Origin: Candidatus Woykebacteria bacterium GWB1_45_5
GTDB taxonomy: Bacteria > Patescibacteriota > Microgenomatia > Woykebacterales > RBG-16-39-9b
Length of the DNA: 25,586 nucleotides
Direction of reading: 5' to 3'
Assembly (NCBI GenBank): GCA_001816645.1
Contig: MHCO01000038.1
Location: 6,358-31,943 of the forward strand
Within the stretch, counting starts at the first letter, position 1; every line of letters starts with the position of its first letter. A program made the position numbers and the translations under genes. The notes under the pieces are model-generated. The model ran no database searches and was not told where the DNA came from. It was given only the letters and a program-made list of their open reading frames with translations. Below are positions 18,469 through 25,586 of this stretch, piece after piece.

Positions 18469-18487
18469 GAATTGCATAAGCCATTCT

Positions 18488-18512
18488 AGTGGTCGTAGCA
18501 AGCGATCAAGTA
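18488..18512 (+). repeat. Conserved intergenic box, copy 1 (no stem-loop)
   Basis: The sequence reads AGTGGTCGTAGCAAGCG followed by ATCA and AGTA. It matches the boxes at 22802 and 25137 in order and spacing and lies in the same place, between a stop codon and an extended -10 promoter. Unlike the other two copies, the segment that follows is AT-only and has no matching right arm. Confidence 0.5.
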
Positions 18513-18559: not shown

Positions 18560-19507
18560 ATGAAAGTCTTGGTTACTGGTATATCTGGTTTTGTCGGCCC
18601 CCATCTGGCCGAATTTTTATTGGAAAAAAAGTTTAGGGTGACAGGTACGGTTAAAGATAGAAGCGAGAACACTCTAAATTTTGGAAATCGGATAGAAATA
18701 TTTAGTGGAGATCTCTTGAGTGGAGAGTTTGTGTACAATTTAGTAAAAAAAAGTAAACCTGATCTTACCTTTCATCTAGCAGCATTTACTAGTCCAGCAG
18801 AAAGTTTTGAAGATCCGACGAAAGTTGTTATTAATAATGTCCAGATAACAATAAACCTTTTGGAAGCGTTAAGGAAGGTGGGTAAAACAGATTCAAGGAC
18901 TTTAATAGTGGGATCAGCTGATGAATATGGTTTGGTTCAAGAGAGGGACAACCCGGTTAAAGAAGATGCTCCTTTGAGGCCTGTAAACCCCTACGCCGTA
19001 TCAAAGGTGGCCCAAGATTTTTTAGGACTTCAGTATCACCTAGCCTATAAACTTAATACTATTCGTGTTCGTCCCGGTAACCAAATCGGACCAGGCCAAA
19101 GGACTGATTTTGTCATCTCGTCTTTTGCTAAACAAGTAGCCGATGCAGAAAAAGGCAAGCAACGTCCAGTAATTAAAGTCGGTAACTTAGAAGTCGTCCG
19201 TGATTTTACGGATGTTCGTGATATGATAAAAGCTTACCTCTTAGCGGTTTTGCAGGGAAAGCCTGGTGAGGTATACAATTTAGGATCTGGTTTTGGTCTA
19301 GCGATTCGGGAGGTTTTGAATAGACTGGTAAGTCTTTCAAAAGTTAAGTTAAAGATTAAAAAAGATCCAGCAAGAATAAGGCCCCTAGATGTTCCAAAAC
19401 TAATTATTGATGCTTCAAAATTTAAAGAATTAACAGGTTGGCAGCCAAAAATTAAGATTGAGCAGACGCTAAAGGATGTTTTAAATTATTGGAGGGAAAA
19501 TGCCTAA
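18560..19507 (+). CDS. rmd: GDP-4-keto-6-deoxy-D-mannose reductase (Rmd-like)
   Basis: This 315-residue SDR probably reduces the product of the next gene (gmd) to GDP-D-rhamnose. It shows GISGFVG (7-13), FHLAAFTSPAESF (71-83), S119 in GSADEYG, and Y145-x3-K149 (PYAVSK). The RVRPGNQIGPGQ segment is the equivalent of the RPFNHTGPGQ motif that marks Rmd enzymes, and DFTDVRDMIKAY and GEVYNLGSG also fit. A fucose-forming epimerase/reductase (Fcl) usually has different residues around this motif, so Rmd is preferred, though GDP-talose or related products cannot be excluded. It overlaps gmd by 8 bases, and a GGAGG site within its end serves gmd. Confidence 0.82.
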   Translation: MKVLVTGISGFVGPHLAEFLLEKKFRVTGTVKDRSENTLNFGNRIEIFSGDLLSGEFVYNLVKKSKPDLTFHLAAFTSPAESFEDPTKVVINNVQITINLLEALRKVGKTDSRTLIVGSADEYGLVQERDNPVKEDAPLRPVNPYAVSKVAQDFLGLQYHLAYKLNTIRVRPGNQIGPGQRTDFVISSFAKQVADAEKGKQRPVIKVGNLEVVRDFTDVRDMIKAYLLAVLQGKPGEVYNLGSGFGLAIREVLNRLVSLSKVKLKIKKDPARIRPLDVPKLIIDASKFKELTGWQPKIKIEQTLKDVLNYWRENA

Positions 19508-22781: not shown

Positions 22782-22801
22782 CAAAGATGATTAGCCCACA
22801 A

Positions 22802-22869
22802 AGTGGTCGCAGCACGCGGAGTATTCGGCTTCGGCACGAAGTGCGGACGGCATAGAATACGAGCGTGCT
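22802..22869 (+). repeat. Conserved intergenic box with large stem-loop, copy 2
   Basis: The box AGTGGTCGCAGC + ACGCGG + AGTA starts at 22802. AGCACGC (22811-22817) pairs with GCGTGCT (22863-22869), and after a small internal loop GTATTC (22821-22826) pairs with GAATAC (22855-22860). An inner hairpin CTTCG-GCA-CGAAG lies at 22829-22841. The right arm runs into the TATAAT promoter box. GATTAG and CACAA upstream also recur before copy 3. No T-run follows, so it is not a normal terminator. Confidence 0.6.
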
Positions 22870-22874
22870 ATAAT
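22866..22874 (+). promoter_or_regulatory. Extended -10 promoter for GT4/manC unit
   Basis: TGCTATAAT is a perfect extended -10 (TATAAT at 22869-22874). It ends 7 bases before the ATG at 22882, leaving no room for a leader or ribosome binding site. The stem-loop just upstream shares its last bases. Confidence 0.65.
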
Positions 22875-22881
22875 TATCCTT

Positions 22882-24069
22882 ATGAAACAACCAAAGATTG
22901 CTCTTGTTCACGATTATTTCAATCAGTATGGCGGTGGAGAGCGAGTACTGCAGTCTTTAAATGAGATTTGGCCGGACGCGCCGATTTACACTTCTATTTA
23001 TGACAAAGACCTAATGCAGGGTTGGCTCGGGATAAACAAATCTTTAATTAAAACCAATTTAATTTCCAAGCTTCCGTTCAGCAATTATTTAGTAAAGCAT
23101 TATTTTGCCATTTACCCACTTGCCTTCCGCCTCCAAAATGTTGGTGATGCCGATATAATCTTAAGTGACACCTCTTACGCATCGAAATTCGCCCGAGGTA
23201 AAAAAGACTCCATCCACATTTGCTACATTTTTACCCCACCCAGGTTTCTTTGGGGTTACGACACCGAGTTGACTCGTTACTACAGCAAGCCGTTCGACAA
23301 GGTTTTAAGCCCCCTATACAGCTTAGTTGTTCCACCAGTAAAAAAAGTCCTAAGGAAGCTGGATTATAACGCGGCTCAAAAAGTAAATTTTTTTATTTCC
23401 ATCTCCAAAGAGGTTCAAGCTCGGATAAAGAAACATTATGGTCGGGATTCAGTAGTGATTTACCCACCAGTGGATATCTCGCGGTTCGCGAAAGTATCAA
23501 GTATACGAGGACGTATTTTTGAAGAATCAAAAAGCAAGGATCAAGTGTCAAGTAAACAAAATTTTTATCTCGTTGTGTCAAGACTTGGGGGGTACAAAAA
23601 AGTCGATATTGTTGTTGAGGCTTTTAACAAGCTTGGACTACCGTTAAAAATCGTGGGGGAAGGACCGCAGTTTAATTATTTAAAATCGATCGCGAAAGGT
23701 AATGTTGAGCTTCTTGGCCGAAGGAGCGATGAAGAAGCGACCCATCTTTTCCAATCCTGCACGGCTTTGATTTTCCCTACCTATGAAGATTTTGGGATTG
23801 TGCCGGTGGAAGCGATGGCAGCTGGCAGACCAGTAATTGCCTATCGGCGAGGCGGCGCTTTGGAGACAGTAGTTGAAGGCGTTACGGGGGAATTTTTTGA
23901 TAAGCAGACGAGCGATGCTATAATTAAGCTAGTTACGAAATTTAATCCCGGTAAGTATGATTCCAAAGCCTGCATCCGGCAGGCTAAAAAATTCTCTAAA
24001 GAAGAATTTAAACGTAAAATTAAGTTTTTTGTGGAGGAAGCGTGGCAAAAGCAGAAAACTACATTGTAA
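22882..24069 (+). CDS. GT4-family glycosyltransferase, WbaZ/mannosyltransferase-like
   Basis: This 395-residue GT-B enzyme begins IALVHDYFNQYGGGERVLQ, the glycine-rich loop typical of WbaZ-like mannosyltransferases. DTSYASKFAR, ICYIFTPPRFLWGYD and IYPPVDISRF follow. The donor half has YLVVSRLGGYKKVDIVVEAF, LPLKIVGEGPQ and an intact EX7E motif (YEDFGIVPVEAMAAGRP). Between ISRFAK and QNFYLVVSR there is an extra polar run of about 20 residues encoded by repeated AAGTATCAAG/GATCAAG-like DNA. It overlaps manC by 28 bases. The adjacent GDP-mannose gene makes GDP-mannose a likely donor. The ATG at 22882 follows the promoter directly. Confidence 0.88.
   Translation: MKQPKIALVHDYFNQYGGGERVLQSLNEIWPDAPIYTSIYDKDLMQGWLGINKSLIKTNLISKLPFSNYLVKHYFAIYPLAFRLQNVGDADIILSDTSYASKFARGKKDSIHICYIFTPPRFLWGYDTELTRYYSKPFDKVLSPLYSLVVPPVKKVLRKLDYNAAQKVNFFISISKEVQARIKKHYGRDSVVIYPPVDISRFAKVSSIRGRIFEESKSKDQVSSKQNFYLVVSRLGGYKKVDIVVEAFNKLGLPLKIVGEGPQFNYLKSIAKGNVELLGRRSDEEATHLFQSCTALIFPTYEDFGIVPVEAMAAGRPVIAYRRGGALETVVEGVTGEFFDKQTSDAIIKLVTKFNPGKYDSKACIRQAKKFSKEEFKRKIKFFVEEAWQKQKTTL
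23491..23555 (+). repeat. In-frame short-repeat insertion in a GT4 gene
   Basis: The stretch contains repeated related units (AAGTATCAAGTATAC, GGATCAAG, TGTCAAGTA) and encodes a polar, lysine/serine-rich linker between the two GT-B halves. The flanking protein blocks are conserved and in frame. Boundaries are approximate. Confidence 0.5.
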
Positions 24070-25127
24070 TTTTAGCTGGTGGGGGCGGTACCAGACTTTG
24101 GCCGAAATCTCGGAAGAGTGCGCCAAAACAATTTTTAAAACTCGTTGACAGTAAGACCCTTTTTCAAGAGACTGTTGCTAGGGTGACTGGGGCTTTCCCC
24201 CTTCCCCATATTTTTGTTGTCAGTAACAGGGAATTTGTCGCCGAGATTAAAAAAGAGGTGCCAGATTTGCCACCAGAAAATATTTTAATTGAACCTTCGC
24301 CAAAAAACACCGCTGCTGCCGCTGGTTTGGCGGCTGCCTACATCGCTAGGAAAAACCCGCAGGCAATAGTCACGACCTTGGCGGCGGACCACTACATCAA
24401 AGAAAAAGCGGAATTCTTAAAAGTTCTTTCCGTCTCGCAAAAAGCAGCCGTCAATGGTAATTACATTGTTACCATCGGCATTCACCCGACCCATGCTCAT
24501 ACTGGCCTGGGTTATATTCATGTCGGTAAGGAAGCCTTCCGGATTCGGAAAAACCCAGTATTTAAAGTTAAAGAGTTTAAAGAAAAGCCCGATCACACCA
24601 CCGCCCACGCTTACTATTCATCTGGCGAATACTTTTGGAATGCGAACATGAACACTTATAAGGCAGAAGCGATCTTAGACGCGATCGAAAGGTATTCCCC
24701 CCATCTTTATAAGGTTTTAGAAAAAGTTAAGCAAGGTGCTACGCATAAAGAAATCGAGTCAGCTTGGTATCTTTTGCCTCCCGAACCAATCGATACCGCA
24801 ATTTTAGAAAAATCAAAAAATGTTCTGGTGGTGCCAGGTGACTTTTCCTGGTTTGATGTGGGAGATTGGTCAACTCTCCACACAATTTTATCTTCTGAGC
24901 CTGACTGGAACGTGTTGCTCGGAGAAGAAGCACCCGAACATATCGGTGTCGACACGGAAGGCTGCTTAATACACGGCACCGGTCGCCTGATCGCCACGCT
25001 TGGTTTAAAAGATTTGATAATTATTGATACGCCGGATGTGCTTTTGATATGTCCAAAAGAGAAGTCTCAGGAGGTAAGAAAGCTTGTCGAAAAGCTAACT
25101 AATGAAAGAAAGCACCAGTTTCTGTGA
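24042..25127 (+). CDS. manC: Mannose-1-phosphate guanylyltransferase (ManC/GMP type, no isomerase domain)
   Basis: This 361-residue enzyme makes GDP-mannose from GTP and mannose 1-phosphate. The signature LAGGGGTRLWPKSRKSAPKQ (11-30) is diagnostic for the group. EPSPKNTAAA, LAADHYI, GYIHVG, FKEKPD, FWNANMN and GDFSWFDVGDW follow. It ends without the phosphomannose isomerase cupin found in bifunctional ManC/AlgA. The GTG at 24042 is supported by a strong GGAGGA (24033-24038) three bases upstream, and it starts inside the previous gene. Its product feeds gmd at 19500 and probably the GT4 enzymes. No phosphomannomutase is in the window, so that step must be encoded elsewhere. Confidence 0.94.
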   Translation: MAKAENYIVILAGGGGTRLWPKSRKSAPKQFLKLVDSKTLFQETVARVTGAFPLPHIFVVSNREFVAEIKKEVPDLPPENILIEPSPKNTAAAAGLAAAYIARKNPQAIVTTLAADHYIKEKAEFLKVLSVSQKAAVNGNYIVTIGIHPTHAHTGLGYIHVGKEAFRIRKNPVFKVKEFKEKPDHTTAHAYYSSGEYFWNANMNTYKAEAILDAIERYSPHLYKVLEKVKQGATHKEIESAWYLLPPEPIDTAILEKSKNVLVVPGDFSWFDVGDWSTLHTILSSEPDWNVLLGEEAPEHIGVDTEGCLIHGTGRLIATLGLKDLIIIDTPDVLLICPKEKSQEVRKLVEKLTNERKHQFL

Positions 25128-25136
25128 TTAGGCACA

Positions 25137-25205
25137 AGGTGACGCAGCATGCGAGAGTACCCAAATTTTTGAAGCGAATGCGAAAACATTCGATTACGGA
25201 GCGTG
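25137..25205 (+). repeat. Conserved intergenic box with stem-loop, copy 3
   Basis: The box (AGGTGACGCAGCATGCG, then AGA and GTA) lies just after the manC stop. CATGC (25148-25152) pairs with GCGTG (25201-25205) with one G-T pair, GTA (25157-25159) pairs with TAC (25195-25197), and an inner hairpin CGAATG/CATTCG has a 6-base loop (25175-25192). The layout matches copy 2, and the right arm again abuts the -10 box. Confidence 0.6.
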
Positions 25206-25212
25206 GTATAAT
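25204..25212 (+). promoter_or_regulatory. Extended -10 promoter for the sugar-phosphate transferase gene
   Basis: TGGTATAAT (TATAAT at 25207-25212) ends only 5 bases before the ATG at 25218. A transcript from it would start on or next to the start codon. No ribosome binding site is present. Confidence 0.65.
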
Positions 25213-25217
25213 TTTCT

Positions 25218-25586
25218 ATGTGGTATTTCTTTATTAAAAGGGTCATGGATTTTTCCGGCGCGCTGATCGGGCTAATTGTTACAGCGCCTCTTTTTTTAAT
25301 TATCGTCATTGCGATTAAGCTTGAATCGGATGGACCAATCTTTGCTGATATCCCTGAAAGAGTTGGGAAGGAAGGTAAAATCTTTCGAATGTTTAAATTT
25401 CGCTCGATGATAAAAGAGGCTCACAATCTTTTGCGATCTGACCCAAAATTTAAAAAGATCTACAAACAATATAAGAAAAATAGCTTTAAGGTGAAAACAG
25501 ACACCGACCCAAGGATTACTGAGGTAGGCAGGTTTTTAAGAAAAACTTCGCTGGATGAGTTGCCGCAACTAATCAATGTTCTTAAA
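25218..25586 (+). CDS. Polyprenyl-phosphate sugar-1-phosphate transferase (bacterial sugar transferase family), 5' part
   Basis: The first 123 codons of a bacterial sugar transferase are present and the gene runs off the right edge. Enzymes of this family (WbaP, WcaJ, PglC) move a sugar 1-phosphate from a nucleotide sugar to undecaprenyl phosphate and so begin glycan assembly. The fragment starts KRVMDFSGALIGLIV (7-21), a single hydrophobic re-entrant or membrane helix with PLFLIIVIAIKLESDGPIF. It continues with FRMFKFRSM (60-68), DPRITEVGRFLRKTSLDELPQ and INVLK. It lacks the extra N-terminal membrane domain of full-length WbaP, so it is the short PglC-like form. The donor sugar is unknown. 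Confidence 0.92.
   Translation, partial: MWYFFIKRVMDFSGALIGLIVTAPLFLIIVIAIKLESDGPIFADIPERVGKEGKIFRMFKFRSMIKEAHNLLRSDPKFKKIYKQYKKNSFKVKTDTDPRITEVGRFLRKTSLDELPQLINVLK

Follow-up and report, generated by a model that had tools for sequence, protein, structure and literature searches.

A probable REP/REPIN-like palindromic repeat of Woykebacteria-type CPR genomes, some copies of which are predicted to be fused to leaderless promoters

The described systems closest to the repeat reported here are the REP sequences and REPINs, for which the accessible parts of three sources (PMC3733652, PMC8266576, PMC3116915) report a GTAG tetranucleotide, or one close to it, at the hairpin foot, the RAYT, and cleavage by TnpA-REP at CT; the first of them also names a UvrD/REP helicase among REP-decorated proteins (PMC3733652). 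The accessible part of a further source (PMC10969869) covers Rickettsia palindromic elements (RPE), which, like CGTC-tagged REPs, have in-frame copies within genes and no known dedicated transposase, as well as Correia elements (CREE/NEMIS) and other promoter-bearing MITEs, small mobile repeats that can equip the following gene with a sigma-70-like promoter. The main text of a REP survey (PMC12306157) mentions neither Patescibacteria nor Candidate Phyla nor Microgenomates, and a limited survey of the open-licence literature, covering titles and abstract openings, yielded no description of such elements in CPR bacteria. The repeat was studied in a window of 25,586 nucleotides, the whole stretch of DNA that was analysed, from Candidatus Woykebacteria bacterium GWB1_45_5, and was then followed through the genome and its relatives. 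If the reading proposed below is true, a REP-like population in reduced CPR genomes extends into promoters, half tRNA genes and protein sequence. The movement of REP-like DNA where a RAYT is unseen, and the origin of leaderless promoters, could be examined on this element.

The plan of the element is TAG-[hairpin 1]-GC-[hairpin 2]-CT, i.e., two tandem hairpins spanning about 30-120 bp in total. By a looser pattern and inspection, three subtypes were distinguished, namely A (GNAGTA..TACGA), B (GAGAGTA..TACGGA) and a short form C, and covariance models were built from type C (R1, 10 sequences), type A (R2, 8 sequences) and type B (R3, 9 sequences). The window holds exactly two exact occurrences of the core CGCAGCANGCG; allowing two mismatches gave no excess there (6 found, 6.8 expected). 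The two copies in the window each start with TTAG and continue with a small hairpin, the GC linker and then a larger hairpin, the 3' arm of which enters TGnTATAAT, and both are predicted to be of the promoter-fused kind:

22791..22871, + strand: element copy 1 (type A), from TTAG to TAT; R2 score 92.5 bits, covariation of type A
22794..22808, + strand: hairpin 1 of copy 1, by folding and R2 alignment
22811..22869, + strand: hairpin 2 of copy 1, with AGCACGC / GCGTGCT as outer arms, by folding and R2 alignment
22866..22874, + strand: predicted extended -10 TGCTATAAT, made of the 3' arm of copy 1 plus flank; exact match, ATG 7 nt past the hexamer
22882..24069, + strand: glycosyltransferase gene, predicted leaderless; ORF, Pfam PF00534
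25128..25209, + strand: element copy 2 (type B), from TTAG to TAT; R3 score 70.1 bits over 25144-25209, covariation of type B
25131..25143, + strand: hairpin 1 of copy 2, by a weak R1 alignment (14.6 bits)
25146..25207, + strand: hairpin 2 of copy 2, with AGCATGC / GCGTGGT as outer arms and one pair broken, by R3 alignment
25204..25212, + strand: predicted extended -10 TGGTATAAT of copy 2; exact match, ATG 5 nt past the hexamer
25218..25586, + strand: sugar transferase gene, predicted leaderless, running off the window; ORF, Pfam PF02397

A sequence-only reading of this DNA had described a conserved box and stem-loop in these two spacers, and its details were recovered: the common letters, the purine internal loop, the inner GTA/TAC stem and GTGnTATAAT were all found, the outer stems CACGC/GCGTG and CATGC/GCGTG are present, and the C/T change in one arm preserves a G-U pair. 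The folding of copy 1 beats 200 of 200 shuffles (z -3.0). The own fold of copy 2 is unremarkable, with 150 of 200 shuffles as good (z +0.7), and the structure of this copy therefore rests on its family (R3, 70 bits); one pair of its outer stem is broken by a C-to-G change. The description of the spacers as repeated applies to these two within the window, and a possible third was not scored by the models: at 18483-18506, CATTCTAGTGGTCGTAGCAAGCGATC resembles hairpin 1 plus linker and may be a degraded copy before the gene at 18560, with no score from any of R1, R2 and R3.

In each of the three subtypes, TAG stands at one end and CTA at the opposite one, and both strands show the same plan because GC and TA read alike on both. 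Paired cells amount to 94.3% in type A, 92.8% in type B and 79.2% in type C, compared with 17-50% once the partners are slid; as the structures were derived from the same sequences, they have an advantage over these slid-partner controls. Two-sided changes at pairs exceed shuffles in types A, B and C, which bears out the compensating changes that had been anticipated. Further pair types in A showed no excess (487 of 500 shuffles reach the observed value). The outer arms vary from AGCACGC to AGGATCC, AGCATTC and others. At three loci of relatives (L113, L123, L125), short type C units lie in tandem, head to tail.

In the 882 kb draft genome, CGCAGCANGCG gave 12 exact matches compared with one for its reversed control, and finding these 12 core copies led to rejection of the idea of a lone leader or riboswitch. 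The covariance-model search that had been suggested for the genome and its relatives turned out positive. It returned 36 matches for R1 and 41 for R2 (E up to 1) and 31 for R3 (E up to 0.05) in the own genome (G000), from which 24 of 36 R1 rows (12 weaker ones dropped), 29 of 41 R2 rows (3 repeats and 9 weaker ones dropped) and 19 of 31 R3 rows (12 repeats dropped) were kept, i.e., 72 rows or, minus one overlap, 71 places. For relatives of the same family, 83 rows were hand-picked from 39, 50 and 77 match rows, with same-place repeats and a few weak rows dropped. The combined set comprises 154 rows and 153 distinct copies; left-end counts use 113 copies, the R3 rows being without the 5' end. 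R3 matches per family genome number 31 in G000, 9 in G001, 24 in G002, none in G003 and G004, 2 in G005 and 23 in G006. Beyond this family the element was not seen in wide searches with R1 and R3, whose stricter filters lose weak matches: R1 matched 6 of the 7 family genomes and none of the 87 others searched, and R3 matched 5 of 187 genomes, all five among the 7 family members (0 of 180 outside). Among GTDB r220 contigs, 8 stretches contain the exact core pattern, including 2 of Candidatus Woykebacteria and 5 from two other MAGs; a match in a Myxococcales contig was judged to be due to chance, as it comprises 26 nt only. Likewise set aside was the one stretch from a viral scan, which covers only model positions 18-36 of 38.

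By a mechanical ORF call, 8 of the 71 own-genome copies overlap an ORF of at least 75 aa, and three of these were inspected (L063, the helicase treated below, L065 and L004). The CTP synthase at L065 was rejected as an interrupted gene, its conserved start lying after the element. At L004, a copy (1484-1564) and the N-terminal leader of a prepilin-like ORF (951-1589, - strand) overlap, and the translation of the copy may therefore belong to the leader.

The positions of individual copies carry the case for movement. A UvrD-type helicase in G000 and G002, which represent two genera, contains an in-frame element of about 23-25 residues that is missing from homologues in three other genera. Homologues without the element were found within the family in G001, G003 and G004 and outside it in G012, G016 and G026; the search at E 1e-60 gave no match in G005, G006, G007, G008, G009 and G011, and the alignment left out G017, which matched. 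At L001, L010 and L012, a truncated tRNA 5' half directly upstream of an intact tRNA gene contains the element in its D-loop, in antisense orientation, a theme which recurs at L085 (G000), at L118 and L180 (G002) and at L206 (G006). In addition, copies are nested within other copies at L064, L174 and L189. These three kinds of sites, i.e., half tRNA genes, other copies and the one helicase gene, contradict the expectation that every copy lies between a stop codon and a start codon. A PfkB-type gene has a promoter copy in G000 and G002 and none at its promoter in G005 or G006, where one 12-bit R3 match at L230 of G006 (E 0.3) is located elsewhere than upstream of the gene; no match to this gene was obtained in G001, G003 and G004. 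Read by eye from relatives and duplicates rather than from strain pairs, the tRNA and nested cases fit a TAG...CT unit inserted between G/T and A with no duplication. They point against a target-duplication (TA) reading, for which the promoter-repeat cases are ambiguous, again by eye. The base before TAG is T in 49%, G in 29%, C in 15% and A in 7% of the 104 of 113 left ends with TAG or TAA in place. The element is structured and dispersed, and it is very probably mobile. As side observations on the half-tRNA loci of G000, G002 and G006, the element often sits in the D-loop region of the half, the 5' ends of half and intact gene differ, and the tRNA-Trp halves of G002 and G006 are alike but carry different elements.

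Compared with REP/REPIN (BIME) systems as presented in the accessible parts of PMC3733652, PMC8266576 and PMC3116915, the element shares a TAG-type tag, mismatched stems, inverted pairs and an arrangement in tandem and nested clusters, mostly between genes. It likewise has conserved hairpins in many copies, and it possesses two inverted hairpins, which would constitute the moving unit. Its tag is usually TAG with a free preceding base and not a strict GTAG; its two hairpins are joined by GC alone, and a subset of copies is predicted to make leaderless extended -10 promoters. A RAYT was not found in 6 of the 7 element-family genomes, all of them drafts: the Y1 transposase (PF01797) is absent from G000 and 5 of its 6 relatives at 83-97% completeness. 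The single Y1 transposase of the family occurs in G005 and was rejected as the mobiliser, being flanked by a different, GTAG-type repeat and having no R1 match at its locus. This Y1/RAYT-like gene (L126:1282-1866, - strand) is bracketed by GTAGCTTCAAGCCCGGGGCTTGA, a REP of the GTAG type that has no relation to the element. An IS110-type protein (PF02371) was discarded as well, as it is found only in G004, where R1 and R3 find no copy. With CGTC-tagged REPs and RPE the element has in common the in-frame gene copies and the lack of a known dedicated transposase mentioned above, but it ends in TAG and CTA rather than CGTC, and the sequence families are unrelated as far as seen. Like Correia elements and promoter-bearing MITEs, it may supply a promoter to the next gene; here, however, the promoter would be completed by the flank. 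By analogy, the element would work like a REPIN and its fused subset like a promoter-bearing MITE. Since the tests for a resident RAYT and for long terminal inverted repeats failed, it is not filed as a proven member of either group.

The proposed link to leaderless promoters fits a subset fused to a -10 box before an ATG and does not extend to the family as a whole, as only 15 of the 153 copies pass the test. Exact TATAAT stands at the 3' junction of 13 of 153 copies, where composition would predict 4.4 (p 5e-4), and at none of 113 left ends; in 10 of these 13 copies an ATG lies 5-8 nt beyond the hexamer. With one mismatch allowed, the hexamer is found at 45 of 153 right and 6 of 113 left ends. 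The 15 copies with a predicted fused leaderless-type start are distributed over G000 (8), G006 (4), G002 (2) and G001 (1). TGn is present in 14 of them versus 40 of the 138 others, within types A and B in 13 of 14 versus 40 of 86, and at 16 of 46 leaderless -10 boxes without the element. Leaderless starts look usual here: among 316 ORF starts from the extracted loci and the window, element-fused starts included, 23 of the 33 exact TATAAT hexamers precede the ATG by 6-9 nt, and at 46 element-free starts a -10-like box precedes it by 5-9 nt. The right flanks of 151 copies favour AT followed by T-rich letters, and target choice may therefore explain part of the TATAAT excess. Nearby -35/-10 pairs by a loose rule differ weakly between right (15 of 153) and left ends (8 of 113). 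By prediction from sequence, a minority of copies appear to have been co-opted into leaderless promoters, and most copies show no promoter fusion.

These observations are best explained if the element is non-coding and mobile, a palindromic repeat of REP/REPIN-like kind that belongs to a CPR family of Woykebacteria type and has some promoter-fused copies; a probability of roughly 0.6 is assigned to this reading. The element would move as folded single-stranded DNA by means of an HUH-type (TnpA-REP-like) enzyme that may be lost, unsampled or too diverged, and the TAG...CT unit would enter between G/T and A without target duplication. Where the element lands in A/T-rich sequence ahead of an ATG, hairpin 2 would contribute its 3' arm (..TGC T) and the flank the remainder of the extended -10 TGnTATAAT, which could drive a leaderless mRNA, and promoter-forming copies would be kept. 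Far more tentative, and rather doubtful, is the stronger claim of a family-specific CPR mobile hairpin that serves as a promoter donor for leaderless genes, targets A/T-rich sites such as -10 boxes, contributes TGn from its arm and takes a RAYT-free route undescribed for REP-like DNA. Correia, ERIC and RUP elements have target habits of their own, e.g., a TA target duplication, and the TA...TA ends of many copies would agree with a MITE of this sort, TA-[element]-TA, moved by a cut-and-paste (DDE) transposase; promoter-bearing MITEs within or between genes are known, according to the accessible part of PMC10969869. This is nevertheless unlikely, as terminal inverted repeats of 15-30 bp are absent, the two hairpins differ, and only TAG...CTA is inverted (by eye). 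A TA duplication finds no clear support and would leave an extra T relative to the usual tRNA letters in L001, L010 and L012, likewise by eye.

Less probable still is an immobile cis-regulatory site or structured RNA, such as an operator, a leader or an mRNA end element, kept by function. Conserved internal loops, covariation and copies at promoters of homologous genes across different genera would suit it, but copies in half tRNA genes, in the helicase gene and in other copies do not, the flanking genes are unrelated, and an Rfam search returned three matches (E up to 5), none of them at the element. The outer stems favour G-U over A-C by 18 to 6 in a motif-anchored count of 78 copies, which hints that one strand may act as RNA, but the models themselves favour G-U; an earlier pairing count chose arms by pairing score and is therefore biased to G-U. 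A terminator or insulator that stops read-through into the next unit is the least probable reading, very unlikely despite the strong hairpins and the T-rich right flanks of many copies. No T-run stands 3' of either window copy, as had been noted from the sequence, the copies at L130, L173 and L200 come after a separate terminator-like hairpin with its own T-run (by eye), and positions in tRNA halves and coding sequence are a misfit. The interpretation of the sequence-only reading is accordingly partly supported: its regulator-site and read-through-block options are possible for single copies and leave the insertions unexplained, and its third option, a palindromic repeat that spreads and brings a promoter with it, is the best fit among those it offered.

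Apart from this element, a second repeat family was observed, consisting of palindromic promoter-like units of the form ATCTCG..TTGTTTCTC..GCGAGATATAAT which are sometimes arrayed. It occurs at L022, L023, L027, L040, L054, L057, L059 and L060 of G000, at L103 and L125 of G002 and at L107 of G006, and type C or B elements sit immediately before its TTGTTT part.
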